DNA of 39,005 bases from Gemmatimonadota bacterium (GTDB lineage: Bacteria > Gemmatimonadota > Gemmatimonadetes > Gemmatimonadales > GWC2-71-9): the NCBI GenBank assembly GCA_016794805.1, contig JAEUJI010000295.1, positions 1 to 39,005 on the forward strand. The letters are read 5' to 3'. A program made the position numbers and the translations under genes. This document shows, in pieces, positions 4,306 through 38,360 of this stretch. Each line of letters opens with the position of its first letter. Within the stretch, counting starts at the first letter, position 1. The notes under the pieces were generated by a model. That model searched no databases and had not been told where the DNA came from. It saw nothing but the letters and a program-made list of their open reading frames with translations.

Positions 4306-4309
4306 GCGC

Positions 4310-22345: not shown

Positions 22346-22372
22346 CCGGCACCGGGCAGCTCCCGGCGCCGG
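22346..22372 (+). other. Hairpin in the actA-actB gap
   Basis: An 11-bp stem with one mismatch around a CAGCT loop, located 14 nt after actA. No U-tract follows. It could stabilise the actA part of the message or reduce read-through, giving more ActA than the other subunits; this is inference. Confidence 0.45.
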
Positions 22373-22449
22373 TGGACGCGAGGCGGCTGGCGGGCGGGTG
22401 CAGGGCTCCCGGCGTCCGGCTCACGGCTAAACGGCCAAAGGCTCCGTCA

Positions 22450-25449
22450 ATGTCGAACGAATCAGCTCGCGAAGGTCTCGACCGCAGGCGCTTCCTCAAG
22501 GTGGTCGGCATCGGTGGCGCCGGCGCCGCCGTGGTCTCCGGCTGCTCCACCGCCCAGGTGGAGAAGCTGGTGCCCTACATGGTGCAGTCCGAGGACCAGG
22601 TCCCCGGGGTGCCCACCTGGTACGCCAGCACCTGCACCGAGTGCGCCGCGGGCTGCGGCCTGCATGTGAAGACGCGCGAGGGGCGCGCCATCAAGCTCGA
22701 GGGCAATCCCGCCCATCCGGTGAACGCGGGCGCCCTCTGTGCCCACGGCCAGTCGGCGCTGCAGGGGTTGTACAATCCCGGGCGGCTGCAGGGCCCGATG
22801 GCGCGGCAGGCGGACGGCAGCTTCACGGCGGTCACCTGGGACGAGGCCATCGCGACCCTGGCCGCGAAGCTGCAGGCCGCCGGGGGCAAGCTCGCCGTCA
22901 TCTCCGGCGCCGGGCGCGGCACCTTCACCGACCTGTTCCAGGGCTGGACCGCGGCCCAGGGCGGGAAGTTCGCCCGCTACTCGGCCTTCAGCTTCGAGCC
23001 GCTGCGCGCGGCCAACCAGATGACCTTCGGCACGCCCGAGGTGCCGCACTACGACCTCGCGCGGGCCCGGTACATCCTCTCCTTCGGCGCGGACTTCCTG
23101 GACGGGTCCTGGCTCTCCCCGGTGGAGACCCAGCGGGGCTTCGCCGAGAGCCACGGCTACCGGGACGGCGCCATGGCGAAGCATGTCATGTTCGCGCCCC
23201 GGATGTCGCTCACCGGCATGAACGCCGACGAGTGGCATCCGCCGAGGCCGGGCAGCGAGGCCGCCATCGCCCTTGCCATGGCGAACGTCCTGCTCACGGA
23301 GCGGGGCGGCAATCCCGCCGACGCCAACGCCCTGCGTGGCGTGCTCGGTCCCTGGACGCCGGAACGGGCGCAGGAGGAGAGCGGGGTCGGGGCCGAGATC
23401 ATCCGCCGCGTGGCCCGGGAGTTCGCCTCGGCGAGCCCCGGGCTGGCCCTCGCGGGCGGCGCCTCCGGGCAGCATCGGAGCGCCGTGCAGACCGCGGCGG
23501 CGGTGAACCTGCTCAACTACGTGGCCGGGAGCGTGGGCCAGACGGTGCGCTTCGGCGCCGACCTCGACACCGGCGATGGCTACGGCGCCCTGCTGGCGCT
23601 GCTGGAGACGGTGGACCGCGGCGAGGCCCAGGTCGCGATCGTCCACGAGGCCAACCCCGCCTACACCCTGCCGCGGACGGCCGGCTTCGCGGCAAAGTTC
23701 GCGAAGGCGGGCTTCAAGGTCTCGACGTCGCTCGTCCTCGATGAGACCGCCGCCCTCTGCGACCTGCTGCTGCCGAACCACCACGCCCTGGAGCGCTGGG
23801 ATGACAGCCGGCCGCGGCGCGGGGTGCAGGGGCTGATGCAGCCGGTCATGGAGCCGGTGTTCAAGACCATGGCCACGGGCGACGTCCTCCTCAAGGTCGC
23901 CCAGAAGGCGGGCGGGGCGCTGGCCCAGTTCACCGCCCCGAGCTACGAGGCCCATCTCAAGGCGCAGTGGCTCAAGCAGCTGGGGACCGATGCGGCCTGG
24001 CGCCAGGCGCTGGCCAATGGCGGCGTCTACGGCGACGCGCCGGCCGCACCGGTCCGGCTGGCGGCGTCCGCGGCCGGGGCCGGCTTCACCGCCCCCGCCT
24101 TCGATGGCGACGCGAGCCCCGAGGCGTTCTACCTCCTGCCCACCGCCTCCGTCTACGGCGATGGGCGGTTTGCCAACCGGCCCTGGCTGCTCGAGCTCTC
24201 CGATCCGGTCACCCGGATCACCTGGCACTCCTGGGCCGAGCTCAACCCGGAGACCGCGAAGCGGCTGGACGTGCGCGAGGGCGAGATCGTCCAGCTCACC
24301 TCCCCCCACGGCACCGTGGAGGCCCCGGTCTACATCTTCCCGGGGCTGCACCCCGAGGTGGTGGCCGTGCCGCTTGGCCTGGGGCACACCAGCTATGGCG
24401 ACTGGGCCACCGGCCGGGGCGTGAACCCGCTCGACCTGCTCGGCGCCAGCGATGGCCAGGGCTTCCTTCCCTACCTCGCCACCCGGGTGACCCTCACCAA
24501 GACCGGCCGCTACAAGCAGGTGGCCAAGACCGAGGGGACCACCCGCCAGCTCGGGCGCGGGATCGCCGATGCGATGACCTTCGCGCAGGCGAAGCAGGGG
24601 ATGACGCCGGCCCTGGCCGCGGCGGCGGAGGGACACGCGCACCACGAGGTCAACACCGAGCGCGAGGTCGAGGCCATCGAGGGCTTCGACGCGGCGCAGC
24701 GGGAGGCGCGGCGGCACGGGGAGTACGCCAACGACCACCCGATGTGGGGCATGGTCATCGACCTGGCCCGCTGCACCGGGTGCTCCTCCTGCATCACCGC
24801 CTGCTACGCGGAGAACAACATCCCCTTCGTTGGGGAGGCGGACATCCTGCGCGGTCGCGAGATGACCTGGATGCGCATCGAGCGCTACTGGGAGGGCGGC
24901 GAGGACGGCGAGCCGCTCGAGGCGCGGGTGGTCCCGATGCTGTGCCAGCACTGCGACAACGCCCCCTGCGAGCCGGTGTGCCCGGTGTACGCCGCGTATC
25001 ACACCCACGACGGGCTCAACGGGCAGGTGTACAACCGCTGCGTTGGCACCCGCTACTGCGCCAACAACTGCCCCTACAAGGTGCGCTACTACAACTGGTA
25101 TGCGTACACCAAGACCGCCTTCCCGGAACCGCTCAACCTGCAGCTCAATCCCGAGGTGACGGTGCGGGCCCGCGGCGTGATGGAGAAGTGCACCTTCTGC
25201 GTGCAGCGGATCCGCGCGGCGCAGCACACCGCGCGGCTGGAGGATCGCACGCTGCGGGATGGCGACGTCGTGACCGCCTGCGCCCAGGCCTGCCCCTCCG
25301 GCGCGATCGTCTTCGGCAACATGAAGGATCCGGCAAGCCGGGTGACCCAGGCCCAGGGCAACCACCGCGGCTACCACATTCTCGAGGACCTGAACGTTCG
25401 CCCGGCGGTGACCTACCTGGCGAAGGTCCTGCACCGGGTGGAGGCGTAA
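22450..25449 (+). CDS. actB: Alternative complex III molybdopterin-fold/iron-sulfur subunit ActB
   Basis: Large extracytoplasmic subunit (999 residues), a fusion of a molybdopterin-oxidoreductase-like domain (about 1-740) and a ferredoxin-like domain (about 750-999) that carries electrons from the quinol site to the haems. The N-terminus has a twin-arginine motif (DRRRFLKVVGIGG) and a lipobox-like VSGC. Residues C62, C65, C69 and C97 form a CxxCxxxCx27C site, as in Fe-S molybdoenzymes. The C-terminal domain has four cysteine groups starting at C775 (CTGCSSCITAC), then CQHCDNAPCEPVCP, CVGTRYCANNCP and CTFCV...CAQACP. ATG 22450 is chosen because it places the twin-arginine motif at the N-terminus; an upstream in-frame GTG adds 26 unrelated residues. 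It is followed three nt later by actC. Confidence 0.95.
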   Translation: MSNESAREGLDRRRFLKVVGIGGAGAAVVSGCSTAQVEKLVPYMVQSEDQVPGVPTWYASTCTECAAGCGLHVKTREGRAIKLEGNPAHPVNAGALCAHGQSALQGLYNPGRLQGPMARQADGSFTAVTWDEAIATLAAKLQAAGGKLAVISGAGRGTFTDLFQGWTAAQGGKFARYSAFSFEPLRAANQMTFGTPEVPHYDLARARYILSFGADFLDGSWLSPVETQRGFAESHGYRDGAMAKHVMFAPRMSLTGMNADEWHPPRPGSEAAIALAMANVLLTERGGNPADANALRGVLGPWTPERAQEESGVGAEIIRRVAREFASASPGLALAGGASGQHRSAVQTAAAVNLLNYVAGSVGQTVRFGADLDTGDGYGALLALLETVDRGEAQVAIVHEANPAYTLPRTAGFAAKFAKAGFKVSTSLVLDETAALCDLLLPNHHALERWDDSRPRRGVQGLMQPVMEPVFKTMATGDVLLKVAQKAGGALAQFTAPSYEAHLKAQWLKQLGTDAAWRQALANGGVYGDAPAAPVRLAASAAGAGFTAPAFDGDASPEAFYLLPTASVYGDGRFANRPWLLELSDPVTRITWHSWAELNPETAKRLDVREGEIVQLTSPHGTVEAPVYIFPGLHPEVVAVPLGLGHTSYGDWATGRGVNPLDLLGASDGQGFLPYLATRVTLTKTGRYKQVAKTEGTTRQLGRGIADAMTFAQAKQGMTPALAAAAEGHAHHEVNTEREVEAIEGFDAAQREARRHGEYANDHPMWGMVIDLARCTGCSSCITACYAENNIPFVGEADILRGREMTWMRIERYWEGGEDGEPLEARVVPMLCQHCDNAPCEPVCPVYAAYHTHDGLNGQVYNRCVGTRYCANNCPYKVRYYNWYAYTKTAFPEPLNLQLNPEVTVRARGVMEKCTFCVQRIRAAQHTARLEDRTLRDGDVVTACAQACPSGAIVFGNMKDPASRVTQAQGNHRGYHILEDLNVRPAVTYLAKVLHRVEA

Positions 25450-25452
25450 CCG

Positions 25453-26802
25453 ATGGCCGCGATCGCGCACGAGTCGAACCACCCGACCCAGACCCATCAC
25501 GAGGTCACCCGGGACGTCGTCAACACCCTGGGCACGGCGGGGACGGGCTACTTCCTCCTGCTGGCCGGGGCGGTGGGCCTCTTCCTCGTCGGCGTCGTCA
25601 CCTTCGTCTTCCTGCTCAAGGATGGGCTGGGCCTGGCGGGCTACAATCCGCCGGCGTTCTGGTCGGTGTACATCACCACCTTCGTGTTCTGGGTCGGCAT
25701 CGGTCACGCCGGGACGCTGATCTCCGCCATCCTGTTCCTGTTCCGCTCCCCCTGGCGGACGGCGGTGTACCGGGCCACCGAGGCCATGACGGTCTTCGCG
25801 GTCATGACGGCGGGCCTGTTCCCCATCATTCATATCGGCCGCCAGTGGTTCTTCTACTGGCTGCTCCCCTATCCCAACCAGCGCTGGCTGTGGCCCAACT
25901 TCAAGTCGCCGCTGGTGTGGGACGTCTTCGCGATCTCCACCTACCTCACCGTCTCGACCACGTTCCTGTGCGTCGGGCTGGTGCCGGACATCGCGGCGGC
26001 CCGGGACATGATGAAGGGCTGGCGCTCCAAGGTGTACGGGGTCTTCTCCCTGGGGTGGAAGGGCACCCAGCACCAGTGGCAGCATTACAGCCGGGCATAC
26101 CTCTACCTGGCCGCGCTGGCCACGCCCCTGGTGCTTTCGGTGCACTCGGTGGTGTCCTGGGACTTCGCCATGTCCATCGTCCCCGGCTGGCACGGGACGA
26201 TCTTCGCCCCCTACTTCGTGGCGGGCGCGATCTACTCCGGCGTCGGCATGGTGTTCACCCTGATGATCCCGCTCCGGAAGGCGCTCAAGCTGGAGCACAT
26301 GATCACCGAGTATCACTTCGACAACCTCTCCAAGCTGACCCTGCTCACCGGCTCCATCCTGTTCTATGCCTACGCGATGGAGTACTTCATCGGCTGGTAC
26401 AGCAACAACACCTATGAGCAGACCGCCTTCTGGCGCCGCGCCTTCGGCCCGATGTGGTGGGGCGGCTGGACCATGATCATCTGCAACGCCTTCGTGTCGC
26501 AGCTGTTCTGGTTCAAGAAGGTGCGCACCAACCTCACCGCGCTCTTCATCATCTCGATCTTCATCAACATCGGGATGTGGTTCGAGCGCTACGTGATCAT
26601 CGCCTCCAGCCTGGCCAACGACTTCCTCCCCTACGCCTGGAGCCAGATGCGGCCCACCTGGGCGGACTGGGGCATCCTCGCCGGCTCGTTCGGCTGGTTC
26701 GGCATGTGGTTCCTCCTCTTCGCCCGCACCTTCCCGGTGGTGGCGATCCAGGAGATCAAGGAGCAGATCCCGATGCCCCGGCTTCGCAAGGGAGGCCACT
26801 GA
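25453..26802 (+). CDS. actC: Alternative complex III quinol-binding membrane subunit ActC (NrfD family)
   Basis: A 449-residue polytopic membrane protein of the NrfD/PsrC family that forms a quinol-oxidising site next to the ActB clusters. About ten hydrophobic segments are visible, for example GYFLLLAGAVGLFLVGVVTFVFLL, WGGWTMIICNAFVSQLF and the last one GSFGWFGMWFLLFARTFP. The conserved early region FWVGIGHAGTLISAILFLFRSPWR is typical of ActC. ATG 25453 follows the actB stop by three nt; its stop overlaps the actD start (TGATG). The closest alternatives, PsrC-like polysulfide reductase subunits, are excluded by the neighbouring ActA/D/E/F genes. Confidence 0.95.
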   Translation: MAAIAHESNHPTQTHHEVTRDVVNTLGTAGTGYFLLLAGAVGLFLVGVVTFVFLLKDGLGLAGYNPPAFWSVYITTFVFWVGIGHAGTLISAILFLFRSPWRTAVYRATEAMTVFAVMTAGLFPIIHIGRQWFFYWLLPYPNQRWLWPNFKSPLVWDVFAISTYLTVSTTFLCVGLVPDIAAARDMMKGWRSKVYGVFSLGWKGTQHQWQHYSRAYLYLAALATPLVLSVHSVVSWDFAMSIVPGWHGTIFAPYFVAGAIYSGVGMVFTLMIPLRKALKLEHMITEYHFDNLSKLTLLTGSILFYAYAMEYFIGWYSNNTYEQTAFWRRAFGPMWWGGWTMIICNAFVSQLFWFKKVRTNLTALFIISIFINIGMWFERYVIIASSLANDFLPYAWSQMRPTWADWGILAGSFGWFGMWFLLFARTFPVVAIQEIKEQIPMPRLRKGGH

Positions 26803-27311
26803 TGGCCCGGTCCGTACCCGGCGTGCTCGCGAGCTTCGAGCACATCGACGCGGCCTGTGACGCGATCCAGGCCCTCCGCGCCCAGGGCCGCCAGGACTTC
26901 ACCGTCTACTCGGCCGCGCCCAGCCACGAGCTGGAGGACGCCCTCGGCATCACCACCTCGCCGGTCCGGCTGTTCACCCTGATCGGCGGGATCACCGGCG
27001 TCTGCGCCGGCCTGGGCATGACCTACTGGATGTCCCTCGACTGGCCGCTGCTGGTGGGCGGGAAGCCGATCGCCACCGTGCCGCCCTACGTGGTGTTCCT
27101 GTTCGAGCTCATGGTGCTGCTCGGCTCGCTCTCCACCGTGGCGGGCGTGGTCATCCTCTCCCTCCGCCGGCCGACCACCGGGCTGGCCTACGACCCCAAG
27201 TTCAGCGACGACCGGATCGGGATCTTCGTCCCCTGCCCGGCGGCGGAGGTGGGCGGCGTGGAGCGGATGTTCCGGGATGCGGGCAGCGTGGAGGTCCGCC
27301 ATGCGGCGTAG
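26802..27311 (+). CDS. actD: Alternative complex III membrane subunit ActD (DUF3341)
   Basis: A 169-residue DUF3341-type subunit with a cytoplasmic N-terminal alpha/beta part (GVLASFEHIDAACDAIQALRAQGRQDFTVYSAAP) and two membrane segments (VRLFTLIGGITGVCAGLGMTY and VVFLFELMVLLGSLSTVAGVV), followed by a ~45-residue C-terminal ferredoxin-like strand-helix unit (DRIGIFVPCP). It packs against ActC/ActF and has no cofactor. ATG 26802 overlaps the actC stop by one base, with a GGAGG ahead (26791-26795). Its end overlaps the actE start by 11 nt. Confidence 0.92.
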   Translation: MARSVPGVLASFEHIDAACDAIQALRAQGRQDFTVYSAAPSHELEDALGITTSPVRLFTLIGGITGVCAGLGMTYWMSLDWPLLVGGKPIATVPPYVVFLFELMVLLGSLSTVAGVVILSLRRPTTGLAYDPKFSDDRIGIFVPCPAAEVGGVERMFRDAGSVEVRHAA

Positions 27312-27897
27312 CCTGAAGACCGCCGCGGCCCTGTGCCTCGCGCTGGGCGCCACCGGCTGCGACTACTACTACAACGACGTCCCCTCGCCCGACGACCTCA
27401 TGCACGTCGTCCCCTGGTTCGACGCCATGATCAAGAGCCCGGCGGTCCACCCCTACGAGACCGCCGCGGTGCCGCGCAACACCGTCCCCGGTACGGTGCC
27501 GATCACCGGCAGCGAGGGCGACTGGTCGGCCGAGTGGGGCGTCGGGAACACCACCACGGCGGACAAGCTGGTGAACCCGCTGGCGGGCCAGCCCGCCTCC
27601 GCCCGGGGCGACACGCTCTACCACACCTTCTGCGCCGTCTGCCACGGGGACACCGGCAACGCCGACAGCCCCGTCAGCGCCAAGGTCGCGGCCCTGCCAC
27701 TCACCACCCCACGCGCCATCGCCTGGAGTGACGGGTACATCTACAGCATCATCCGCTACGGTCGCGGCGTCATGCCCCGGTATGCCGCGCAGGTGCGGGG
27801 CATCAACCGCTGGGAGATCGTGAACTACGTGCGGAAGCTGCAGGCCGACGCGACGGCCGCCACCGCCGCCCCGGCGCCTGCGGGAGGAGTCAACTGA
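27301..27897 (+). CDS. actE: Alternative complex III monohaem cytochrome c subunit ActE
   Basis: A 198-residue periplasmic lipoprotein cytochrome c. The N-terminus is a lipoprotein signal peptide (MRRSLKTAAALCLALGATGCDYYY). A single haem site CAVCH lies at residues 111-115 and the probable axial methionine is M158 in GRGVMPRY. A Tyr/Pro/Asp-rich stretch precedes the haem domain, which ends in a helix (INRWEIVNYVRKLQ). The Ala/Pro tail (last 20 residues) is likely disordered. ATG 27301 lies inside the actD end, and the stop overlaps the actF ATG (TGATG). ActE is the likely exit point to the soluble acceptor. Confidence 0.93.
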   Translation: MRRSLKTAAALCLALGATGCDYYYNDVPSPDDLMHVVPWFDAMIKSPAVHPYETAAVPRNTVPGTVPITGSEGDWSAEWGVGNTTTADKLVNPLAGQPASARGDTLYHTFCAVCHGDTGNADSPVSAKVAALPLTTPRAIAWSDGYIYSIIRYGRGVMPRYAAQVRGINRWEIVNYVRKLQADATAATAAPAPAGGVN

Positions 27898-29168
27898 TGG
27901 GCACCACGTCGGTGCGCGACCAGCTCGTCGCCCGGTCGGTTTCCGCCCGCTACAACCTGTTCGTCGGCCTGGGCACCGCCCTCGCCCTCGTGGGCGCGGC
28001 CCTCTTCGTCTACTTCGCCCGGGGCGAGCACGCCGACCGCGCCTGGCACCTGTTCCACGTCAACTGGGTCTACTTCACCGGCCTCACCGGGGGCAGCTTC
28101 GCCTTCGTGGCGGTGCAGAAGGTGACCAAGGCCAAGTGGTCCGGGGTGATCATCCGCTTCGCCGAGGCCGCGCCCTTCTTCTTCTGGCCGGTATCGGCGG
28201 TGGGCTTCCTGCTCATCTTCACCGTGGGATATCCCCACATCTTCCCCGACATGCACGGGCTCGGGCATGGCAAGGAGATCTGGCTCTCCCACGGATTCAT
28301 GTTCGGCCGGCTCGCGGTGGGGCTGTCGGTGCTCTACTACCTCGGCTTCCAGCTGGTCAAGGCGGACCTGATCCCCGACATGCATGACGTGAAGGGGGCG
28401 GTCCCCACCGAGCGGCGCGGGTTGTACGAGCGGTGGACCCAGGGCTTCGACGCCACCCCGGACGGCCGCGCCCGGCACGAGGCGCGGATCGCCGTCCTGG
28501 CGCCGGTCTACATCATTACCTACGCCATCGTCTTCACCATGGTGGCGTTCGACACCATCATGGCGCTGCAGCCGCACTGGTTCTCCAACCTCTTCGGCGG
28601 CTGGTACTTCATGGGGTCCTTCCTCGGCGCCCACACCCTCCTGGCGCTGATGATGCTCTATGGGCGGAACGAGGTGGGCATCGCCGAGTTCATCAGCCCC
28701 AGGCAGCGCCATGACCTCGGCAAGCTCTGCTTCGGGTTCACCGTCTTCTGGACCTACCTGATGTGGTCCCAGTTCCTGGTGATCTGGTACGGCAACCTGC
28801 CGGAGGAGACCGGGTTCGTCTTCGCCCGCCTGTGGGGCGAGTGGCGGCCGATCGGCCGGCTGGTGTTCCTGGGGATGTTTGTGGTGCCCTTCATCGGGCT
28901 GCTCGGCGTGGCGCCGAAGAAGACCCCGGTCACCCTCGGGCTGTTCACCGCGGTGAGCCTCTGCACTCTCTGGCTCGAGCGCTACCTGCTCGTCCTGCCG
29001 TCCGTGACCAAGGAAGCCGGGCCGGTCTTCGGCGTGGCGGAGCTGGGGCCCACCCTCGGCTTCCTGGGCCTCTTCCTGCTGAGCTACGGCTTCTTCGCCC
29101 GCACCTTCCCGATGGTCTCGCCCAGGCTGGCGCTGATCACGCTGGAAAAGGAAGCCGGGCACCACTGA
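27897..29168 (+). CDS. actF: Alternative complex III membrane subunit ActF (NrfD-like)
   Basis: A 423-residue polytopic membrane protein, the second NrfD-like subunit. About ten hydrophobic segments are seen, including YNLFVGLGTALALVGAALFVYF, FFWPVSAVGFLLIFTVGYP and FLGLFLLSYGFFARTFPM. The HLFHVNWVYFTGLTGGSFAFVAV stretch near the N-terminus is a family feature. It pairs with ActC in the membrane; in characterised complexes ActC rather than ActF is the quinol site. It is the last gene of the operon. No actG and no terminal oxidase genes follow; a long terminator hairpin comes 15 nt downstream. Confidence 0.94.
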   Translation: MGTTSVRDQLVARSVSARYNLFVGLGTALALVGAALFVYFARGEHADRAWHLFHVNWVYFTGLTGGSFAFVAVQKVTKAKWSGVIIRFAEAAPFFFWPVSAVGFLLIFTVGYPHIFPDMHGLGHGKEIWLSHGFMFGRLAVGLSVLYYLGFQLVKADLIPDMHDVKGAVPTERRGLYERWTQGFDATPDGRARHEARIAVLAPVYIITYAIVFTMVAFDTIMALQPHWFSNLFGGWYFMGSFLGAHTLLALMMLYGRNEVGIAEFISPRQRHDLGKLCFGFTVFWTYLMWSQFLVIWYGNLPEETGFVFARLWGEWRPIGRLVFLGMFVVPFIGLLGVAPKKTPVTLGLFTAVSLCTLWLERYLLVLPSVTKEAGPVFGVAELGPTLGFLGLFLLSYGFFARTFPMVSPRLALITLEKEAGHH

Positions 29169-29256: not shown

Positions 29257-30270
29257 CTAGTACCGCCGACGGGCGTTCACCCGGCTGAGCAGCGAGCCGA
29301 GGGACTGCGAGGGCCCGGTCACCGCCACCATGCGATCGCCCTGCTGGATGGTCACGGTCACCCGGTCTGACTCGCCGGAACGGACGGGTCCCCCGGCCTC
29401 GCGAACCTCACCGGCGGCCACGATGGCCTGGACCCGCGCCGTCGGACCCGCCAGCGTGCGCACCACTTCACCGGACTCGAGCATCTGGTCCACGGCGGTG
29501 ACGTCCGGCCCCCCCTCGCCGGGCTGCACCCGCATCTGCACGACCGGGAGTCCGGGGACCAGAGGAATATCCACGGAACGCGCCGAGCCGCTGCTGTCCG
29601 GCACCACCGTGCGCCACAACCCCTGCAGCCCAAGCTCGGCGCCAACCGGCTGCGCCAGCAGCGAGGGAAGCTCCTCGCCGTCCCCGCCGGAAACCACCTG
29701 CCGCTGCCGGGGGAGGAAATCGGGAGTCGGGTCGGTCTCGACCAGCGAGGCGAACTGTACCGGGGACTCCCGGCGGCCGGTGCCCTGCGGCACCCGGATG
29801 AGGCGCCGTTCCGGCTCCTGGGCCACCGGAGCGGACCGGGTGGCCGGGAGGCGCGTCGGGGCGGCCACCTCGGTGACGGGGGCGGAGTCGCGCGAGGGTG
29901 CGGCCGGCGCCGTGGCGGCGATGGCGGTCGGGTCCGGGCGGCGGGCTCCCGGCTTGAGGGTCCAGCCGAGGAAGATGGCCCCCGCCACGCTGGCGGCCCA
30001 CATCCCGGCGATCAGCCACCGCTGGCGGCCCTGCACCCGCTCCGCCGCCCGGGCCTGCAGGACCGCGTAGGCGGGCGGGATGATCGCCGGCGGCCCGAGC
30101 TCGGCCAGCAGCTCGGTGGTCCGGTCCCGCAGGCGGGCGATGTCGTCCCGCAGCACCTGGCAGGCCGGACAGCGGGCCAGGTGCCGCTCGATCTCCACCG
30201 CCTGCGACCGGCTGAGGGCCTGGTCGAGGTAGGCGTGGAGTTCTTCGTCAGGAATGTGCCGCACGGTCAT
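29257..30270 (-). CDS. Membrane anti-sigma factor with zinc-binding N-terminus
   Basis: A 337-residue anti-sigma factor for the ECF sigma encoded upstream. The N-terminal ~70 residues form a zinc anti-sigma (ZAS) domain, IPDEELHAYLDQALS...EIERHLARCPACQ, with the HxxxCxxC motif. One membrane segment follows (WLIAGMWAASVAGAIFLGWTL, about 90-110), then a ~225-residue extracytoplasmic region rich in Pro, Ala, Arg and Val. That region has a repeated strand-like pattern near the C-terminus (VTVTIQQGDRMVAVTG) but no family I can name. ATG 30270 gives the HIPDEEL start and overlaps the sigma gene by 23 nt, so the pair is translationally coupled. The signal it senses is unknown. Confidence 0.85.
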   Translation of the reverse strand: MTVRHIPDEELHAYLDQALSRSQAVEIERHLARCPACQVLRDDIARLRDRTTELLAELGPPAIIPPAYAVLQARAAERVQGRQRWLIAGMWAASVAGAIFLGWTLKPGARRPDPTAIAATAPAAPSRDSAPVTEVAAPTRLPATRSAPVAQEPERRLIRVPQGTGRRESPVQFASLVETDPTPDFLPRQRQVVSGGDGEELPSLLAQPVGAELGLQGLWRTVVPDSSGSARSVDIPLVPGLPVVQMRVQPGEGGPDVTAVDQMLESGEVVRTLAGPTARVQAIVAAGEVREAGGPVRSGESDRVTVTIQQGDRMVAVTGPSQSLGSLLSRVNARRRY

Positions 30271-30763
30271 CGCGATGTTCCATCCGGTCGTGAGCGTCAA
30301 TGAGTCGTTTGCGGGCGCGGGCCAGCGTCGTACCCACCGCGCCGACGGCGAGTCCGGTCTGCTGGGCGATTTCGGGATAGCTCATCCCGGCGTCCCAGAG
30401 CAGCAGGACCTCGCGGTCCCGCTTGGTAAGCGTCCCCAGCGCCTCGTCCACCCGGGCGCGGCGTTCGTCCTCTTCCACCATCTCGTCGGCGGCCGGCTGG
30501 CTGGAGGGGAGGGTGACGGGATCATCCTTGAGCAGCGTGAGGTGACGCTTCCGCCGGATGGCGGCGCGGGCCTCATCCCGGGCCAGGTTCGCCGCCACCG
30601 CGAACAGCCACGCCCGGGGCTTCTCCGGGCGATGGGCCATGGCGCGGATGAAGACTTCCTGGGCCAGGTCGTGCGCCCGGTCGGCATCCCAGACCTTGCG
30701 GTACAGGAAGCGGACCACCGTCGCGTAGGTCGTGCGGTACAGCTCTTCAAGCTCATCGCCCAT
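30248..30763 (-). CDS. ECF RNA polymerase sigma factor
   Basis: A 171-residue extracytoplasmic-function sigma factor. Region 2 is YRTTYATVVRFLYRKVWDADRAHDLAQEVFIRAMAH (DLAQEVF being the hallmark), and region 4 is LGTLTKRDREVLLLWDAGMSYPEIAQQTGLAVGAVGTTLARARKRL, a helix-turn-helix that reads the -35. Regions 1.1 and 3 are missing, as expected. ATG 30763 is used; about 120 nt separate it from the next upstream gene on the same strand. It is followed by its overlapping anti-sigma gene. The regulon cannot be predicted from this window. Confidence 0.93.
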   Translation of the reverse strand: MGDELEELYRTTYATVVRFLYRKVWDADRAHDLAQEVFIRAMAHRPEKPRAWLFAVAANLARDEARAAIRRKRHLTLLKDDPVTLPSSQPAADEMVEEDERRARVDEALGTLTKRDREVLLLWDAGMSYPEIAQQTGLAVGAVGTTLARARKRLIDAHDRMEHRDDRAAHS

Positions 30764-31793: not shown

Positions 31794-32252
31794 ATGCGCG
31801 CGACGATGATGGTGGCGGGACTCGCCCTGGCCCTGGCGGCCTGCGGCGGCAAGGGCGGCGATCAGCCGGCGGAACAGCCTGCGGCGGCGGCGCCGGCGGC
31901 GGCTCCGGCAGTGACCGGCGCCACCCATGAAGTGCAGATGGACTTCGACGGCAAGGTGGGGACGTTCACCCCGGCCGAGCTGACGATCAAGGCCGGTGAC
32001 GTGGTGAAGTTCGTGGTGCGCAGTGGCCCGCCCCACAACGTGGCGTTCGACGCGGCCCTGATTCCGGCCGGCGCCGCGGACGTGCTCAACAAGGCGATGG
32101 CCGAGACCATGGGGCCGCTGACCGGCCCGATGAAGGTCGGCATCGGCGAGAGCTACGAGATCAGCTTCGCCGGCGCGCCCGCGGGCACCTACGAGTACCA
32201 CTGCACGCCGCACGTGCCGTTCGGGATGAAGGCCAAGCTGACGGTTCAGTAG
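31794..32252 (+). CDS. Blue-copper (cupredoxin) lipoprotein, auracyanin/plastocyanin-like
   Basis: A 152-residue membrane-tethered copper protein that carries single electrons in the periplasm. A lipoprotein signal (MRATMMVAGLALALAACGG) puts the lipidated Cys at residue 17, followed by an Ala/Pro-rich tether to about residue 40 and one cupredoxin domain. The type-1 copper ligands are visible: His in GPPHNVAF, and Cys, His and Met in YHCTPHVPFGM. The domain has the long inserted loop (LIPAGAADVLNKAMAETMGP) seen in auracyanin-like proteins. A good GGAGG precedes ATG 31794. Given the act operon 2.6 kb upstream and the matching operator, it is a plausible electron acceptor of the Act complex, as auracyanin is thought to be in Chloroflexus; this is inference. 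Confidence 0.88.
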   Translation: MRATMMVAGLALALAACGGKGGDQPAEQPAAAAPAAAPAVTGATHEVQMDFDGKVGTFTPAELTIKAGDVVKFVVRSGPPHNVAFDAALIPAGAADVLNKAMAETMGPLTGPMKVGIGESYEISFAGAPAGTYEYHCTPHVPFGMKAKLTVQ

Positions 32253-32279: not shown

Positions 32280-32299
32280 CCGGGGCGAATCAGCCCCGG
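32280..32299. terminator. Hairpin between convergent cupredoxin and PAP2 genes
   Basis: CCGGGGC-GAATCA-GCCCCGG, a 7-bp stem and 6-nt loop. The stop of the minus-strand PAP2 gene (32290-32292) is in the loop. There is no U-tract. Confidence 0.45.
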
Positions 32300-33153
32300 C
32301 GCGCCGCGGTCCCGGCTTCCCGCTCCCTCCGCCACCCCAGCCACACGACCACTCCAGCCACCAGCACGCCTGCCACTGCGTCCACCGCGTAGTGCATCTG
32401 GCAGTAGACCACCCCGATCGTGAGCAGCAGCGCGGGGCCCGCGAGCACCGCGCCCAGTTTCCGCGACCCGAACCAGGCCGCCGCGGCCGCCACCAGGGTG
32501 GCCGCGACATGGGACGATGGGAACGCCGCCCCATACGCGCTGCCCTTGCTGAGGGTGGCGTAGACCAGCCGCGCGGCCCAGTTGTCGAGGAATGCCGCAT
32601 CGGGCCGCGGATATTCGTAGTAGGGCCCCGCGACCGGGTAGAGCAGGAAGACGAGATAGCAGGAGAGGAAGGTTGCCATCAGCCAGAGCACCGAGCGCTC
32701 GGCCGCCGCGCGACGTCCCCACGCGAGGAAAAGGATTGGCGGCCCCAGCACGATCGGATAGTACGCGAAGTAGACCGCGTGCAGCACCGTGGACCAGAAC
32801 CGGCTTGGGGCAGCCTGCCACCAGGTCCGGCTGACCGCTCCCCCGAACAGGCGCAGCTCCCAGTGCTGGATGGCGGCATCGTGCACCGCGGCGGCGCCAA
32901 AGTTGTTCAGGATGTCGATGGCGGGGTAGAACGCGCCCAGCAGAAGCAGAGGGGCCACCGTCCGCAGCCCCTGTCCCGGCGGCCCGGCGTCGGCGTGGCG
33001 CAACAGCCACATCAGGACGAAGATCATGACGTGCGCACCGAGAACCCAGGCGATGGCGGGCTGGGCGGACCACCGGAAGAGCGCCAGGAGCGTGGTGATC
33101 GCGACATAGCCGAGGACGAGCCGCTCGGCGGGCCGGAATGCTCCGGGGTTCAC
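32290..33153 (-). CDS. PAP2/AUR1-like membrane enzyme, candidate ceramide headgroup transferase
   Basis: A 287-residue membrane protein of the PAP2 superfamily with about six hydrophobic segments. The catalytic motifs are GAAFPSSHVAATL (the SxxH-type motif with the first catalytic His) and CQMHYAVDAVAG, whose HYxxD form is shared by the AUR1/inositol-phosphorylceramide-synthase branch. A lipid phosphatase or phosphotransferase acting on a long-chain base or ceramide is the natural reading, because the three genes upstream form a ceramide pathway. GTG 33153 overlaps the reductase stop (GTGA), so it is translated as the last gene of that operon. The headgroup donor cannot be read from sequence; a simple phosphatidate phosphatase remains possible. 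Confidence 0.78.
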   Translation of the reverse strand: MNPGAFRPAERLVLGYVAITTLLALFRWSAQPAIAWVLGAHVMIFVLMWLLRHADAGPPGQGLRTVAPLLLLGAFYPAIDILNNFGAAAVHDAAIQHWELRLFGGAVSRTWWQAAPSRFWSTVLHAVYFAYYPIVLGPPILFLAWGRRAAAERSVLWLMATFLSCYLVFLLYPVAGPYYEYPRPDAAFLDNWAARLVYATLSKGSAYGAAFPSSHVAATLVAAAAAWFGSRKLGAVLAGPALLLTIGVVYCQMHYAVDAVAGVLVAGVVVWLGWRREREAGTAARRG

Positions 33154-34142
33154 AACCAGCCGTGTTCGCGGTACCAGCGAACCGTCTCCGCCAGCCCGGC
33201 GGACAGATCGTGGGTGGCCCTCCAGCCGGCATCCTGCGCGAAGGGCGTGGGGTCCCCGGTCCAGGCAGGCTGGAAGAATTCGTTGGCCTTGTCGGGGGTC
33301 AGGATCGTCGCCTGGCCGGCCAACCGCGCCGCGGCACCCGTGAGCGTCAGGGCCAGGCGCGCCAGCGCGGCGGGGAGGCGGAGTACCCGCACCGGCGGAC
33401 CACCGCCCGCCGGCGCAAGCGCGCGGCCGACCGCCAGCACAAACTCGGCGCTGCTGAACACTTCGGGGTGGCAGGCGTAGTAGGTCCGGCCCACCGTGGC
33501 GTCGCTGCCGCCCGCGGCGACGAGGGCGGCGGCGAGGTCGGGCCCGAATACCGCCGACAGCTCCTGGGTGCCGTCACCAAAGACGGGGGCGAGGCCGCGC
33601 CGGGCGATCCGGAACACCTTGAGCACCTCGGTATCCCGCGGCCCATAGACCATCGGGGGCCGGACGATGGTCCAGGGCAGCCCCGATTCGCGCACCACCT
33701 GCTCCCCCGCGAGCTTGCTGCGGCCGTAGGCGGTCACCGGCGCGGCGGGTTCGGTGCCGGTGAGCGGCCGGCCCCGGGGCGCGGGCCCGCCCGCCGCCAT
33801 GCTCGAGACCAGCACGAACCGGGGCACCCGGTCCCCGCGCTGCTCCGCGATCGCGGCGAGCAGGTTGCGGGTACCCTCGCGATTGCCCTGGAGGAATTCG
33901 GCCTCATCCCGCGCGGCGACCAGGCCGGCGACATGATAGATGACGTCCTGCCCTCGGACGGCCTCGCGGAGTGCCGGGTGGTGGTGCAGGTCTCCGGCGA
34001 CGGTGCGCACGCCAAGGGAGCCGAGGTGGGCTGCTTTCGCCGGGGAGCGCACCAGGGCGGTGACCTCGGCGCCCTGCTGCCGGAGCGCCTCGGCGAGATG
34101 GCCCCCGACGAAGCCAGTCGCCCCGGTGACCAGCGCCTTCAT
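33150..34142 (-). CDS. NAD(P)-dependent epimerase/reductase, candidate ceramide reductase (CerR-like)
   Basis: A 330-residue extended short-chain dehydrogenase. The nucleotide motif is VTGATGFVGGHLAEAL at the very N-terminus; the catalytic Ser and Tyr-x-x-x-Lys lie in VLVSSMAAGG and YGRSKLAGE. The C-terminal substrate part is typical of the epimerase family (PPMVYGPRD). ATG 34142 overlaps the acyltransferase stop (ATGA). In bacterial ceramide synthesis, known from Caulobacter, an enzyme of this family reduces the 3-oxo group after acylation, and the gene order here fits that role. On its own the sequence would only support a generic NAD-dependent epimerase/dehydratase, so the specific role depends on context. 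Confidence 0.85.
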   Translation of the reverse strand: MKALVTGATGFVGGHLAEALRQQGAEVTALVRSPAKAAHLGSLGVRTVAGDLHHHPALREAVRGQDVIYHVAGLVAARDEAEFLQGNREGTRNLLAAIAEQRGDRVPRFVLVSSMAAGGPAPRGRPLTGTEPAAPVTAYGRSKLAGEQVVRESGLPWTIVRPPMVYGPRDTEVLKVFRIARRGLAPVFGDGTQELSAVFGPDLAAALVAAGGSDATVGRTYYACHPEVFSSAEFVLAVGRALAPAGGGPPVRVLRLPAALARLALTLTGAAARLAGQATILTPDKANEFFQPAWTGDPTPFAQDAGWRATHDLSAGLAETVRWYREHGWL

Positions 34143-35266
34143 AGCGGCCGGTCGTAGAGCCGATAGGTCTTGTAGACGGCGAACTCCATCTTCTCGAGGC
34201 CGGCGTTCATCGCCGGGTTGTCCTCGAGGATCCAGCCCGCCTCGCCCCAGTAGATGTTGTGGTTCTTGGCCCGGGTCCAGATCCAATGGTAGAGCATCGC
34301 GTCGATGCCCTTCCCGCGCAGCTCCGGCACCACGCCCAGGAGCAGGATGCGGAGCCGGCGGAGCCGCTTGAACTTGAGGGAGAGCAGCAGGTCGGCGAGG
34401 AGGGCCGGCGTGAGGCGGCCGGACCGGTGCCGGCGGAACACGGTGTTGAGGTCCGGCAGGCAGAGCCCGAAGCCGACCGCCTCGCCGTCCTTCTCGGCGA
34501 ACGGCACCAGGTCGGCGACGACCACCGGCTTGAACTGCTCGGCCAGGTGGTCGATCTCATGATCGGTCATCGGGATGAAGCCCCAGTTCTTCTCCCAGCA
34601 GCGATTGTAGAGCCGCTTGATCCGCTCCACCTCGGCGGGGAAGTCCTGCAGGTTCATGGGGCGGATGGTGACGCCCTGCCGCTTCATCAGCATCTCGGTC
34701 CCGCGCGCCAGTCGCTCGGGCACCGGGAGGTAGATGGATTCGTACCCCCCGCGGTAGACCAGCAGGTCCTTCGCCTTCCTGAACCCCGCCGCATCCACGA
34801 GGCGCTCGTAGTAGGGGGGATTGTGGGGCATCATGAGGGTGGGCGGGGTGTCGTAGCCCCGCACCAGCAGCCCGCACTCGTCGTTGGTGGAGAAGGAGGC
34901 GGGGCCCCGCATGACGTCATGGTTCCGGGTCCGGAGCCAGGCGGCGGCCGCCTCGAACAGCGCATTGGCGACCTCGTGGTCGTAGCTGCACTCGAAGAAG
35001 CCGAAGAAGCCGACCCGGTCCGCGTGCACCTCGTTGTGCAGCCGGTTGCTGATCGCCGCGATCCGCCCGACCACCTTCCCCTCCCGTTCGGCGAGGAAGT
35101 ACTCCGCCTCGGCGTGCTCGAAGAACGGGTTGGTGGCCCGGTCCAGCAGCTTGCGCACGTCCATACGCAACGGCGGGACCCAGAGCGGGTCCCGCGCGTG
35201 GAGTTCGTAGGGCAGCTTGATGAAGCGATCCAGGCCGGCGCGATCGCTCGCCGGCCGGACGGTCAC
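34139..35266 (-). CDS. GNAT-fold N-acyltransferase, candidate bacterial ceramide synthase
   Basis: A 375-residue soluble protein with two GNAT-like halves. The N-terminal half has FIKLPYELHARDPLWVPPLRMDVRKLLD and FLAEREGKVVGRIAAISNRLHN; the C-terminal half has the acyl-CoA loop region VVPELRGKGIDAMLYHWIW. This protein type is widespread as an unnamed 370-380-residue GNAT and resembles the bacterial ceramide synthase (bCerS), which N-acylates 3-oxosphinganine. It lies eight nt after the serine palmitoyltransferase gene and overlaps the reductase gene. GTG 35266 is used; no good Shine-Dalgarno is visible, suggesting coupling to the upstream gene. Acyl donor and chain length cannot be told. Confidence 0.78.
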   Translation of the reverse strand: MTVRPASDRAGLDRFIKLPYELHARDPLWVPPLRMDVRKLLDRATNPFFEHAEAEYFLAEREGKVVGRIAAISNRLHNEVHADRVGFFGFFECSYDHEVANALFEAAAAWLRTRNHDVMRGPASFSTNDECGLLVRGYDTPPTLMMPHNPPYYERLVDAAGFRKAKDLLVYRGGYESIYLPVPERLARGTEMLMKRQGVTIRPMNLQDFPAEVERIKRLYNRCWEKNWGFIPMTDHEIDHLAEQFKPVVVADLVPFAEKDGEAVGFGLCLPDLNTVFRRHRSGRLTPALLADLLLSLKFKRLRRLRILLLGVVPELRGKGIDAMLYHWIWTRAKNHNIYWGEAGWILEDNPAMNAGLEKMEFAVYKTYRLYDRPL

Positions 35267-35274
35267 TGCAGCGG

Positions 35275-36480
35275 TCAGATGACCCCCAGGTCCTTGCCGA
35301 TGCTGGCGAACTGCTCCAGGCAGAAGTCGATCTGCTCAAAGGAGTGCGTGGCCATGACGCTGGTGCGGAGCCGGCACTGGGACGGCGGCACGGCGGGCGG
35401 CATCACCGGGTTGGTGAAGACGCCGGCATCGAACAGCTTGCGCCAGAAGACGAAGGTGGTCTCCATGGGGCCGATCTGGACCGGGATGATCGGGGTCTCG
35501 GTCTCGCCGATGTCATAGCCCAGGCCGCGCATGCCGTTGATGAGGCGGTGGGTGTTGGCCCACAGCGCGGTGCGGCGGTCCGGCTCGGACTTGAGTACCT
35601 CCAGGGCGGCCAGGACACCGGCGGTGTTGGCCGGGGGCAGGGAGGCGGTGAAGATGAGCGGGCGGCAGTGGTGCTTCAGGAAGTGGATGACGTTCTCCGA
35701 GCCGGCCACGAAGCCGCCGATGGAGGCCAGCGACTTCGAGAAGGTGCCGGCGATGAGGTCCACCTCGTCGGTCATCCCGAAGTGCGCGGCGGTGCCGTCG
35801 CCCTTGGGGCCCAGGACGCCGATCGAATGGGCGTCGTCGAGCGCCAGCGCGATGCCGTACTTCCGCGAGATGCGCACCAGCTCCGGCACGTTGGCGATGT
35901 CGCCTTCCATCGAATAGACGCCGTCCACCACGATCATGGCGCCCTTGCTGCCACGCGTCCGCTCGATCATCCGATCGAGGCCCGCGAGGTCGCCATGGGT
36001 GAAGCGCAGCGTCTCGCCGTAGGACATCTTGGCGCCGTCAACGATCGAGGCGTGGTCCAGCTTGTCGAGGTAGACCAGGTCGCCCCGGCCGATCAGGCCC
36101 GAGATCAGCCCCAGGTTGGCCTGGTATCCGGTGGAGAAGACCAGGCAGTCTTCCTTCCCCAGGAACTCGGCCAGCGAGGCCTCCAGCTGGCCATGCAGGT
36201 CCAGGGTGCCATTCAGGAACCGGCTCCCGGTGCAGCCCGACCCGTAGCGGTGCAGGGCGCGGCCGGCCGCCTCCAGCACCTTTGGGTGGTGCGTCAGGCC
36301 CAGGTAGTTGTTCGAGCCGAGCATGATCCGCTTCTGGCCCTCGATCATGACCGAGGTGTCCTCGGAATCCGAGATCGGCTTGAAGTACGGATACAGTCCA
36401 GCGGCCTGGATCTCGCGTGCCTTGGTGAACTGCCGGCACTTCTCGAAGAGCTGGATACTGTGCAGCGTCTGGGTTTCCAC
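35275..36480 (-). CDS. spt: Serine palmitoyltransferase-like alpha-oxoamine synthase
   Basis: A 401-residue PLP enzyme of the alpha-oxoamine synthase family (SPT, KBL, BioF, HemA), expected to condense serine with a fatty acyl thioester to 3-oxosphinganine. Motifs are LGSNNYLGLTHHPKVLEA, GSGCTGSRFLNGT, LDDAHSIGVLG (PLP-ring Asp and His) and the Schiff-base lysine K249 in GTFSKSLASIGG. The N-terminal extension (FEKCRQFTKAREIQAAGLYPYF) is characteristic of bacterial SPT-like members, and the three coupled downstream genes match sphingolipid synthesis rather than biotin or haem pathways. 2-amino-3-ketobutyrate ligase is the main alternative, but no threonine dehydrogenase is nearby. GTG 36480 has a GAGG upstream. 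Confidence 0.85.
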   Translation of the reverse strand: METQTLHSIQLFEKCRQFTKAREIQAAGLYPYFKPISDSEDTSVMIEGQKRIMLGSNNYLGLTHHPKVLEAAGRALHRYGSGCTGSRFLNGTLDLHGQLEASLAEFLGKEDCLVFSTGYQANLGLISGLIGRGDLVYLDKLDHASIVDGAKMSYGETLRFTHGDLAGLDRMIERTRGSKGAMIVVDGVYSMEGDIANVPELVRISRKYGIALALDDAHSIGVLGPKGDGTAAHFGMTDEVDLIAGTFSKSLASIGGFVAGSENVIHFLKHHCRPLIFTASLPPANTAGVLAALEVLKSEPDRRTALWANTHRLINGMRGLGYDIGETETPIIPVQIGPMETTFVFWRKLFDAGVFTNPVMPPAVPPSQCRLRTSVMATHSFEQIDFCLEQFASIGKDLGVI

Positions 36481-36516
36481 GGGGCCTCGTCTCGCGCTGG
36501 TGGAATCTGGTGCCTG

Positions 36517-36541
36517 ATACTAAGCCGTTACAACCTAACGG
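36517..36541 (-). promoter_or_regulatory. spt -10-like element with upstream inverted repeat (possible operator)
   Basis: On the minus strand TAGTAT (36517-36522) lies 36 nt before GTG 36480. Immediately upstream sits the inverted repeat CCGTTA-CAACC-TAACGG (36525-36541), in the position of the spacer, so a bound protein would block the promoter. The -35 is not clear. Confidence 0.45.
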
Positions 36542-36590
36542 TTTGGGTGGCAAGGCACAAGCAACAACCGGGACCGGCGGCAGGTCCCGC

Positions 36591-36596
36591 TACATT
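36591..36596 (+). promoter_or_regulatory. -10 element of the protease gene; predicted leaderless start
   Basis: TACATT ends six nt before ATG 36603, too close for a leader with a ribosome binding site. The ACCTCC between them is not a Shine-Dalgarno in sense orientation. Confidence 0.5.
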
Positions 36597-36602
36597 ACCT
36601 CC

Positions 36603-38360
36603 ATGCGCCGCCCGCCCGCCCCGCGCCTCCTCCCGCTGCTGTTGTGCCTCACGGTGCTGGCACCCGCCCATCCCGATCCGGTCTATCCCCGTTCCGAGGT
36701 GGGGCGGTTCGAGGTGGATGGGCTGGATTTCCGCCCCGTCGGCGCCTGGCGACGTGAAACCGGCCGGGTCCGGGAGCGGCGGAGGGCGCTGCTCGCCACC
36801 GGGCGGCTCGCCCAGCTCAACGCCCCGGGCGCCGGCTCGGCCCTGCGGGTCGGCGGGCAGTACCTGGTGCCGGTCATTCCCATCGCCTTCGCGAATGCGG
36901 CGCCTCCCTTTCCGGCGTCGGCCTACCAGCAGGTGCTCTTCGCCGCCGATCCGGCCCCGCTCCCCTACAGCGTCCGATCCTACTTCGCCGAGGTGTCCCG
37001 CGGGCAGGTCACGATTGACGGCGTCCTCTTCGGCTGGGTCACGGCCGACAGTACCGACACCTATTACGAGGATGGCTGCAACGGCATCGGCGTCCTGAAC
37101 AGCTGCCCCAAGGGCACGCTGCCGTTTGGTGACCTGCTGCTCCAGGCCCTGGAGCGTTCCGACACCGGCGGAGTGGATTGGGGCAGGTTCGACAACGATG
37201 GCGCCGACGGCCTGCCCAACTCAGGCGACGATGACGGCGTGGTGGACTTCGTGACCTTCCTCCAGCCCGAGGTGGATGGCGCCTGCGGGACCACCAACCT
37301 CTGGGCCCACCGCTTCGACGTGGGTTTCTGGCGCGGCGGCGGATTCATCACGGCGAGTCCCGTTCGCGACGCCGGCGGGACGCCGGTCCCCGGCAGCTTC
37401 ATCCGGATCCGCGACTACACCCTGCAGAGTGGGGTGGGCGGGCCCGGCGCCTGCGCCGCGGGCCAGCTGATGCCGATCGGGACGGTGGCACACGAGACCG
37501 GTCACGCCTTCGGGTTGCCGGACCTGTACGACACCAACCTGCGGAGCCCGAGCGTCACCCAGGGGCTCGGCGAGTGGAGCATCATGGGAAGCGGGAACTA
37601 CACCCAGCCCTACAGCCCGGCGGGACTCGATGCCTGGTCGCTGGCGGAGCTGGGGTGGGTGGCGGTGGACACCGCGCCGGCGGCGGGCCCGGTGGTTCTC
37701 TCGCCGGTGGCGACCTCCGACACGGTGCTGAGCCTCGCGGTGCCCAATACCGACGAGTATTTCCTGCTGGAGAACCGCCAGGCCATCGGCAGCGACAGCG
37801 CGCAGCTCAATCCCGCCTGCCAGTTCAATGGCCGTTCCTGCGCCAAGGGGCCGGGGCTGCTCATCTGGCATATCGATGCCGGCCAGGTGGCCGCGCACGG
37901 ATTCTTCCAGGACAACCGGGTGAACAGCGGGCCGGTCCACGGTGTGGCCCTGGTCCAGGCGGACGGTCTCAACCAGTTGCGGCAACCCGGCACCCGGAAC
38001 CGGGGCGACGCCGGCGATCCCTGGCCCGGCAGCAGCGGGAATACTCGGTTCGACGACACTTCCCTCCCGGCCGCCCGTGACAACCAGGGGCTTTCCGCCG
38101 GCTTCGCCCTGGATGCCATCCGGCAGGTGACGCCGGGCGGTGCGATCGGCTTTTCCCTCGGCCGGAGCACGCCGGGCGGCGTCACCGTGACGCTCACCGA
38201 GGCAAGCGATGCCCTGGTGCGGCGGCGCCCCCTCGCCGCCGCGCAGGCAGCGTACCTTGATTCGTTAGGTAACGCCAACGGCGGCTACGACGCGGGGGAC
38301 TTCCTGGCGTGGTACCGGATGCAGCTCATCAGCGCTGCGGGGACGGGGGGCGCCCGATGA
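36603..38360 (+). CDS. Secreted M6-family metalloprotease with dockerin-like C-terminus
   Basis: A 585-residue secreted zinc protease of the M6 (immune inhibitor A-like) family. A signal peptide (MRRPPAPRLLPLLLCLTVLAPAHP) is followed by a pro-region and a catalytic domain with HETGHAFGLPDLYD (His297, Glu298, His301 plus downstream Asp), and the family's later motif GEWSIMGSGNY. The last 35 residues (about 551-585), LDSLGNANGGYDAGDFLAWY, resemble a single Ca-binding loop of dockerin type. That tail includes a TTA leucine codon, rare in this GC-rich window. ATG 36603 is chosen because the signal peptide starts there and TACATT lies six nt upstream. The stop overlaps the lipoprotein gene (ATGA). 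Confidence 0.88.
   Translation: MRRPPAPRLLPLLLCLTVLAPAHPDPVYPRSEVGRFEVDGLDFRPVGAWRRETGRVRERRRALLATGRLAQLNAPGAGSALRVGGQYLVPVIPIAFANAAPPFPASAYQQVLFAADPAPLPYSVRSYFAEVSRGQVTIDGVLFGWVTADSTDTYYEDGCNGIGVLNSCPKGTLPFGDLLLQALERSDTGGVDWGRFDNDGADGLPNSGDDDGVVDFVTFLQPEVDGACGTTNLWAHRFDVGFWRGGGFITASPVRDAGGTPVPGSFIRIRDYTLQSGVGGPGACAAGQLMPIGTVAHETGHAFGLPDLYDTNLRSPSVTQGLGEWSIMGSGNYTQPYSPAGLDAWSLAELGWVAVDTAPAAGPVVLSPVATSDTVLSLAVPNTDEYFLLENRQAIGSDSAQLNPACQFNGRSCAKGPGLLIWHIDAGQVAAHGFFQDNRVNSGPVHGVALVQADGLNQLRQPGTRNRGDAGDPWPGSSGNTRFDDTSLPAARDNQGLSAGFALDAIRQVTPGGAIGFSLGRSTPGGVTVTLTEASDALVRRRPLAAAQAAYLDSLGNANGGYDAGDFLAWYRMQLISAAGTGGAR

Follow-up and report, generated by a model that had tools for sequence, protein, structure and literature searches.

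We examined a 39,005-nucleotide (nt) Gemmatimonadota contig (JAEUJI010000295.1; assembly GCA_016794805.1, 3.9 Mb in 377 contigs), referred to below in its whole length as the window, and found four consecutive open reading frames on its minus strand (36480-32290) that probably form one sphingolipid operon ending in the transfer of a phospho-head group, with inositol phosphoceramide as the likeliest product. The activities are predicted from sequence and modelled structure. We are nearly certain of the narrower assignment, by sequence, of the first three genes to a ceramide backbone operon. In the order of reading, the genes are as follows:

35275..36480, minus strand: spt, putative serine palmitoyltransferase (SPT), 401 aa, GTG start; predicted to convert acyl-CoA and serine to 3-oxosphinganine
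34139..35266, minus strand: bcerS, putative tandem-GNAT bacterial ceramide synthase, 375 aa, GTG start; predicted to N-acylate 3-oxosphinganine
33150..34142, minus strand: cerR, putative NAD(P)-dependent ceramide reductase of the extended short-chain dehydrogenase/reductase (SDR) type, 330 aa, ATG start
32290..33153, minus strand: candidate PAP2 phosphotransferase resembling AUR1/inositol phosphorylceramide (IPC) synthase, 287 aa, GTG start; would place a phospho-head group on ceramide

Domain searches placed the first product among the alpha-oxoamine synthases, with SPT models scoring highest, and called GNAT, Epimerase and PAP2_3/PAP2 in the other three, respectively. Read in the sequence, 8 nt separate the spt stop codon from the bcerS GTG, bcerS and cerR overlap in ATGA, and cerR and the PAP2 gene overlap in GTGA. 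The start of cerR was taken at an internal ATG (34142), which yields the ATGA overlap; the mechanically called reading frame extends further upstream. An earlier note on this DNA had described the same four reading frames, with their place, strand, gap and overlaps, all of which are present, and had read them as a self-contained ceramide pathway with a head-group gene fused into the operon. Its ceramide-operon interpretation is supported by the position of gene 1 in the SPT clade, by the predicted status of gene 2 as a bCerS ortholog and of gene 3 as a CerR ortholog, and by the conserved gene order. The fourth gene is adjacent and overlapping, but not fused. "Self-contained" is too strong, because the donor of the head group would have to be supplied by genes outside the operon.

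In the proposed pathway the gene order would be the reaction order. Spt would supply 3-oxosphinganine, the tandem-GNAT bCerS would N-acylate it to 3-oxo-dihydroceramide, and the SDR enzyme CerR would reduce the keto group to give dihydroceramide. The AUR1-like PAP2 membrane enzyme may then use a His-His-Asp triad to move a phospho-head group from a phospholipid to ceramide; the likeliest donor would be phosphatidylinositol (PI) from an unlinked gene pair and the likeliest product inositol phosphoceramide. From the genes we infer that acylation precedes reduction, which donor and head group are used, and that the lipid is actually produced. All of the parts are enzymes of known kinds, and the type of pathway is known as well.

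Gene 1 is a predicted serine palmitoyltransferase by the clade in which it falls. Among NCBIfam models it scored highest with SerpalmtaseCFB (527.9 bits), followed by the BetaP SPT model (419.1), BioF (376.5) and Kbl (PRK06939, 371.4), and among PDB sequences it matched Sphingobacterium SPT best (427 bits), ahead of Sphingomonas SPT (316), Kbl (about 265) and cysteate-C-fatty acyltransferase (245). A maximum-likelihood tree, for which two PDB sequences were taken from an alignment printout, places the protein in a clade with the Sphingobacterium and Sphingomonas SPTs (support 100/99) and apart from the Rhodobacteria SPTs, with E. coli Kbl and BioF outside; long branches make some of the joins inside the SPT clade uncertain. 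The earlier note had asked whether gene 1 might group with 2-amino-3-ketobutyrate ligase, and it does not. Kbl/BioF identity was ruled out by the model ranking and the tree, and an operon unrelated to sphingolipids is highly improbable, as is also argued by genes 2 and 3, predicted orthologs of Caulobacter genes required for ceramide. The sole point on that side is that the protein falls short of the curated equivalog thresholds set for the SPT models (527.9 vs. 640 bits for CFB and 419.1 vs. 500 for BetaP), which no genome of the class passes; we treat these cut-offs as a naming rule, the putative SPT being filed by the tree. It is improbable too, if less extremely so, that the enzyme uses alanine, glycine or cysteate and that 1-deoxyceramides or sulfonolipids are made in place of canonical sphingolipids. 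Amino-acid donors do vary across the family, and 1-deoxyceramide synthesis from alanine by Spt has been described (PMC11334938). However, the bit scores favor SPT over cysteate-C-fatty acyltransferase, the segment around the pyridoxal phosphate (PLP)-binding lysine, GTFSKSLASIGGFVAG, is nearly identical to that of Sphingobacterium SPT, and a phosphotransferase that works at the C1 hydroxyl would presumably require a serine-derived base.

Gene 2 is, by sequence, a predicted ortholog of the bacterial ceramide synthase CC_1154/YghO, though Pfam detects nothing beyond a GNAT domain in its product. A profile built from 26 relatives had a single match in the complete E. coli chromosome, yghO (340.7 bits), located 3.3 kb from an SPT gene, and YghO is 34% identical to the window protein over 380 aa. 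In an annotated copy of this locus from another record, yghO adjoins genes for a fatty acyl-AMP ligase, an epimerase, an acyl carrier protein (ACP) and SPT. In a published list, yghO and CC_1154 are given as one gene that is needed for dihydroceramide (PMC9386255). The best match in Roseomonas mucosa (41.7% identity) follows LptF and LptG and precedes a nucleotidyltransferase (NTP-transferase) gene, in a stretch that also holds diacylglycerol-kinase-family and CDP-alcohol phosphotransferase genes, and the Caulobacter region CC_1168-CC_1152 has a matching layout around CC_1154 (PMC11324152). Orthology to CC_1154 was drawn through named orthologs, YghO and the positional ortholog of Roseomonas. 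With yghO as the single E. coli match and a Roseomonas ortholog at a CC_1154-like position, the protein does not group away from bCerS, an outcome that the earlier note had considered; its claim of a double GNAT in this 375-residue protein agrees with the AlphaFold model (pLDDT 91.7), which has a tandem GNAT fold. Single-sequence searches of the PDB with the GNAT and PAP2 proteins gave nothing usable, and alignments and folds were used instead.

Gene 3 is a predicted CerR ortholog. In E. coli, a CerR profile of 32 rows scored highest with the epimerase gene inside the aasR-cerR-acpR-spt cluster, at 216.5 bits against 129.8 for the runner-up; the window protein has 28% direct identity to that E. 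coli gene. The profile also separated a best match in Prevotella (281.5 bits) from the next (61). Genes of the spt clusters of Rubrobacter and Streptomyces scored 320 and 275 bits, respectively; together with E. coli, Roseomonas and Prevotella, these supplied the reference records for orthology. Within the profile, the nucleotide motif T6-G7-x-x-G10-F-x-G13 and Y139 are invariant, and K143, which completes Y-x3-K, is kept in at least 90%.

The fourth gene likely encodes an AUR1-type phosphosphingolipid synthase, as predicted from profile and fold comparisons that agree with the PAP2/AUR1-family reading of the earlier note. Its product matches PF14378 (PAP2_3) and also PF01569. The HYxxD motif reported before is present as H254-Y255-x-x-D258, accompanied by PSSH (212-215), and these residues are invariant in 22 aligned proteins, with a triad of H215, H254 and D258. 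When the profile was compared with PDB sequences, AUR1 entries came first (E = 1e-6), then YodM (0.005) and LpxE (0.014), and the triad sits in an ungapped alignment block with AUR1. For the AlphaFold model (pLDDT 93.7), the best Foldseek match was an IPC synthase-ceramide complex (9vj4; E = 6e-5, TM 0.66/0.68), followed by Aur1-Kei1 (9ivc; E = 2e-4), with LpxE lower (1.7e-2) and the sphingomyelin-synthase-related 8ijq far below (1.7).

The gene order is kept widely, a point on which the earlier note had proposed a check. SPT, GNAT and epimerase genes are collinear in 51 related loci, with the 4-nt GNAT/epimerase overlap in 44 of the 51 and PAP2 as the next gene in 40, which is a lower bound since several loci stop before or within the fourth gene. 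Therefore, the four-gene arrangement is not a product of chance. The closest named relatives that share these genes are metagenome-assembled genomes of Gemmatimonadales or Gemmatimonadota (loci L031-L056). The genome of another locus, L113, has spt, bcerS and the PAP2 gene. We also surveyed 149 genomes of the class, counting SPT at 400 bits or more. SPT was present in 68 of them, in 67 with the GNAT alongside (Fisher p = 1e-21, uncorrected for shared descent), and PAP2 accompanied SPT in 63 of the 68, compared with 12 of the 81 genomes without SPT (Fisher p = 2e-23, likewise uncorrected). In one family (f2), PAP2 occurs in four of 29 genomes, all four of which have the GNAT, and the 24 genomes without the GNAT show no PAP2 at threshold. 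PAP2 travels with the ceramide module even when the two are not adjacent: it is on a contig separate from the SPT module in one genome (G060), and near the GNAT gene on the opposite strand in two others (G148 and G057).

The same genome holds, unlinked to the operon, a pair of genes (locus L139) that corresponds to the part of the Bacteroides BT_1522-1526 pathway that supplies the donor. One (3572-4228) encodes a CDP-alcohol phosphotransferase closest to PI-phosphate synthase (PIPSynth, 159 bits; cut-off 170), and its end is overlapped by the start of a myo-inositol-phosphate synthase gene (4228-5565; PF07994, 327 bits). The pair represents capacity, not linkage. Since the genome holds it, inositol phosphoceramide is the likeliest predicted product, though for inositol itself as the head group we would put the chances at about even. 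Co-occurrence with inositol-phosphate synthase was tried as a test of the head group and set aside as weak, the gene being near-universal; its association with PAP2 (p = 0.009) is uncorrected for descent and depends on few absences. One 99% complete genome (G030) is the sole member of family f1 with the operon but without PAP2, and it also lacks inositol-phosphate synthase, a joint absence that is suggestive but a single case.

Two other readings of gene 4 have to be weighed. It is unlikely that the protein is an ordinary PAP2 lipid phosphatase acting on, for example, ceramide 1-phosphate, phosphatidylglycerophosphate or undecaprenyl pyrophosphate, so that the final lipid would be free or otherwise decorated ceramide. 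The PF01569 match and weak matches of some relatives to undecaprenyl-diphosphatase and LpxE models speak for a phosphatase, but the phosphatase motifs K-x6-RP and S-R-x5-H-x3-D, the latter with an Arg before the second His, were not seen in the window protein or its aligned relatives, AUR1 outranks every phosphatase both by profile and by fold, and the gene closely co-occurs with SPT. Less readily dismissed, although we still consider it rather unlikely, is a ceramide operon of the same kind in which gene 4 transfers phosphoethanolamine from phosphatidylethanolamine or phosphoglycerol from phosphatidylglycerol, giving ethanolamine or glycerol phosphoceramide. Transferases of the AUR1/SMS type vary in their donor, Bacteroides produces ethanolamine phosphoceramide besides inositol phosphoceramide, and inositol-phosphate synthase is not specific to genomes with the operon. 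On the other side, among solved structures the nearest are IPC synthases, with 8ijq far down the ranking, the two inositol genes are present, and G030 is without both PAP2 and inositol-phosphate synthase.

Several observations, in addition to the missed SPT cut-offs, weigh against an operon for inositol phosphoceramide. The sequence likeness of gene 4 to AUR1 is limited to about 76 residues around the triad. The model for phosphoinositol dihydroceramide synthase (NF052609) had no match in the window protein, which we therefore call AUR1-like without assigning it to the model family of BT_1522, and it matched six of 22 relatives weakly (best E = 0.00056). Inositol-phosphate synthase is found in 139 of the 149 genomes, with or without the operon, and so does not single out inositol, while one genome (G094) has PAP2 with no inositol-phosphate synthase detected. 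The co-occurrence p-values ignore shared descent. The N-terminus of CerR, MKALVTGATGF, has no signal peptide visible by eye, which is hard to square with the periplasmic location reported for the Caulobacter enzyme (PMC11087976).

Elsewhere in the window, a metalloprotease gene of the M6 family (immune inhibitor A type; 36510-38360, plus strand) is divergent from the operon and keeps its place upstream of spt in many relatives, and a plastocyanin-like cupredoxin gene (31794-32252, plus strand), convergent with the operon, is also found downstream in relatives. Further away are alternative complex III-like genes (22372-29168, plus strand) for a molybdopterin/Fe-S protein, NrfD, cytochrome c and a membrane protein without a Pfam match, and an extracytoplasmic function (ECF) sigma factor gene that overlaps a zinc-finger anti-sigma gene (29257-30763, minus strand). 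The window contains no tRNA and no Rfam family, and a promoter and terminator scan gave nothing above shuffled controls.

Variations on the module were seen in other genomes of the survey. Several genomes of family f7 (L192:7325-8413 and loci L025-L027) have a GNAT that shares 47-49% identity with bCerS of the window, and no SPT above threshold. A 1647-aa protein (L196:3606-8549 and L121:11-4549, both plus strand) combines fatty-acyl-AMP ligase, acyl-CoA dehydrogenase, ACP and alpha-oxoamine synthase domains, and thus resembles aasR, acpR and spt in one polypeptide with a dehydrogenase added. In G057, a genome of the same order that is without a stand-alone SPT above threshold, it is found close to genes for a GNAT of the bCerS type and a PAP2 protein resembling AUR1, and another genome (G136, L197) has a similar ligase-ACP-alpha-oxoamine synthase set without the dehydrogenase.

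Sphingolipids have been reported from few bacterial groups. The earlier note called the pathway little described in this lineage, and our literature searches found no description of sphingolipids in Gemmatimonadota, although an earlier genomic listing is possible, a Black Sea study having placed Spt-like proteins in 38 phyla (PMC11334938). Nor did the literature searched describe an AUR1-type gene directly behind spt-bcerS-cerR. It is a tentative proposal, to which we give slightly less than even chances, that large parts of the Gemmatimonadota make yeast-like inositol phosphoceramides from an operon of four co-transcribed genes, spt-bcerS-cerR and an AUR1-type gene that has joined them. Soil lipidomics tends to ascribe ceramides to fungi (PMC9969633). 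With SPT in 68 of 149 genomes, nearly all of them with the AUR1-like gene, bacteria could be the source of some of the ceramide and inositol phosphoceramide signal in soil. An operon with its steps in order and a candidate prokaryotic relative of AUR1 would also be a compact set for asking whether acylation or reduction comes first and how AUR1-type enzymes arose.

Among known systems, Spt-bCerS-CerR of Caulobacter crescentus (CC_1162, CC_1154 and CC_1164) and its E. coli yghO counterpart have the orthologous acyltransferase and reductase and the same three steps. However, that system includes acpR and aasR genes, which the window operon lacks, and Caulobacter derives its head group from ceramide kinase/CPG2 genes where the window has a PAP2 enzyme. 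The three-gene order spt-bcerS-cerR also occurs on plasmids of Rubrobacter and Streptomyces, and Ignavibacteria and Aureispira have the same three orthologs with cerR divergent from spt-bcerS; an AUR1-like PAP2 fourth gene was present in none of those checked, and in Ignavibacteria and related groups no PAP2 match lies nearby. On the Rubrobacter radiotolerans plasmid (L128:4701-10293) the reductase is followed by a gene of the lipoteichoic acid (LTA)-synthase family, and on the Streptomyces plasmid (L130:3763-8289) by a condensation-domain gene; these clusters are possibly sphingolipid operons of Actinomycetota with other fourth genes. Bacteroides shares with the window genome an SPT that is not of the Rhodobacteria type, an AUR1-like PAP2 enzyme, and PI-synthase-like and inositol-phosphate synthase genes, and its BT_1522 is an AUR1-type PI-dihydroceramide synthase described together with BT_1523 and BT_1526 (PMC9246714, PMC8791184). 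The Bacteroides AUR1-type gene forms a cluster with the inositol genes, while spt, CerS and CerR are dispersed, whereas in the window genome the AUR1-like gene lies within the ceramide operon and the inositol genes lie elsewhere. Yeast AUR1 (9vj4, 9ivc), at about 17% identity, shares with gene 4 both its fold (TM 0.66/0.68) and the His-His-Asp triad.

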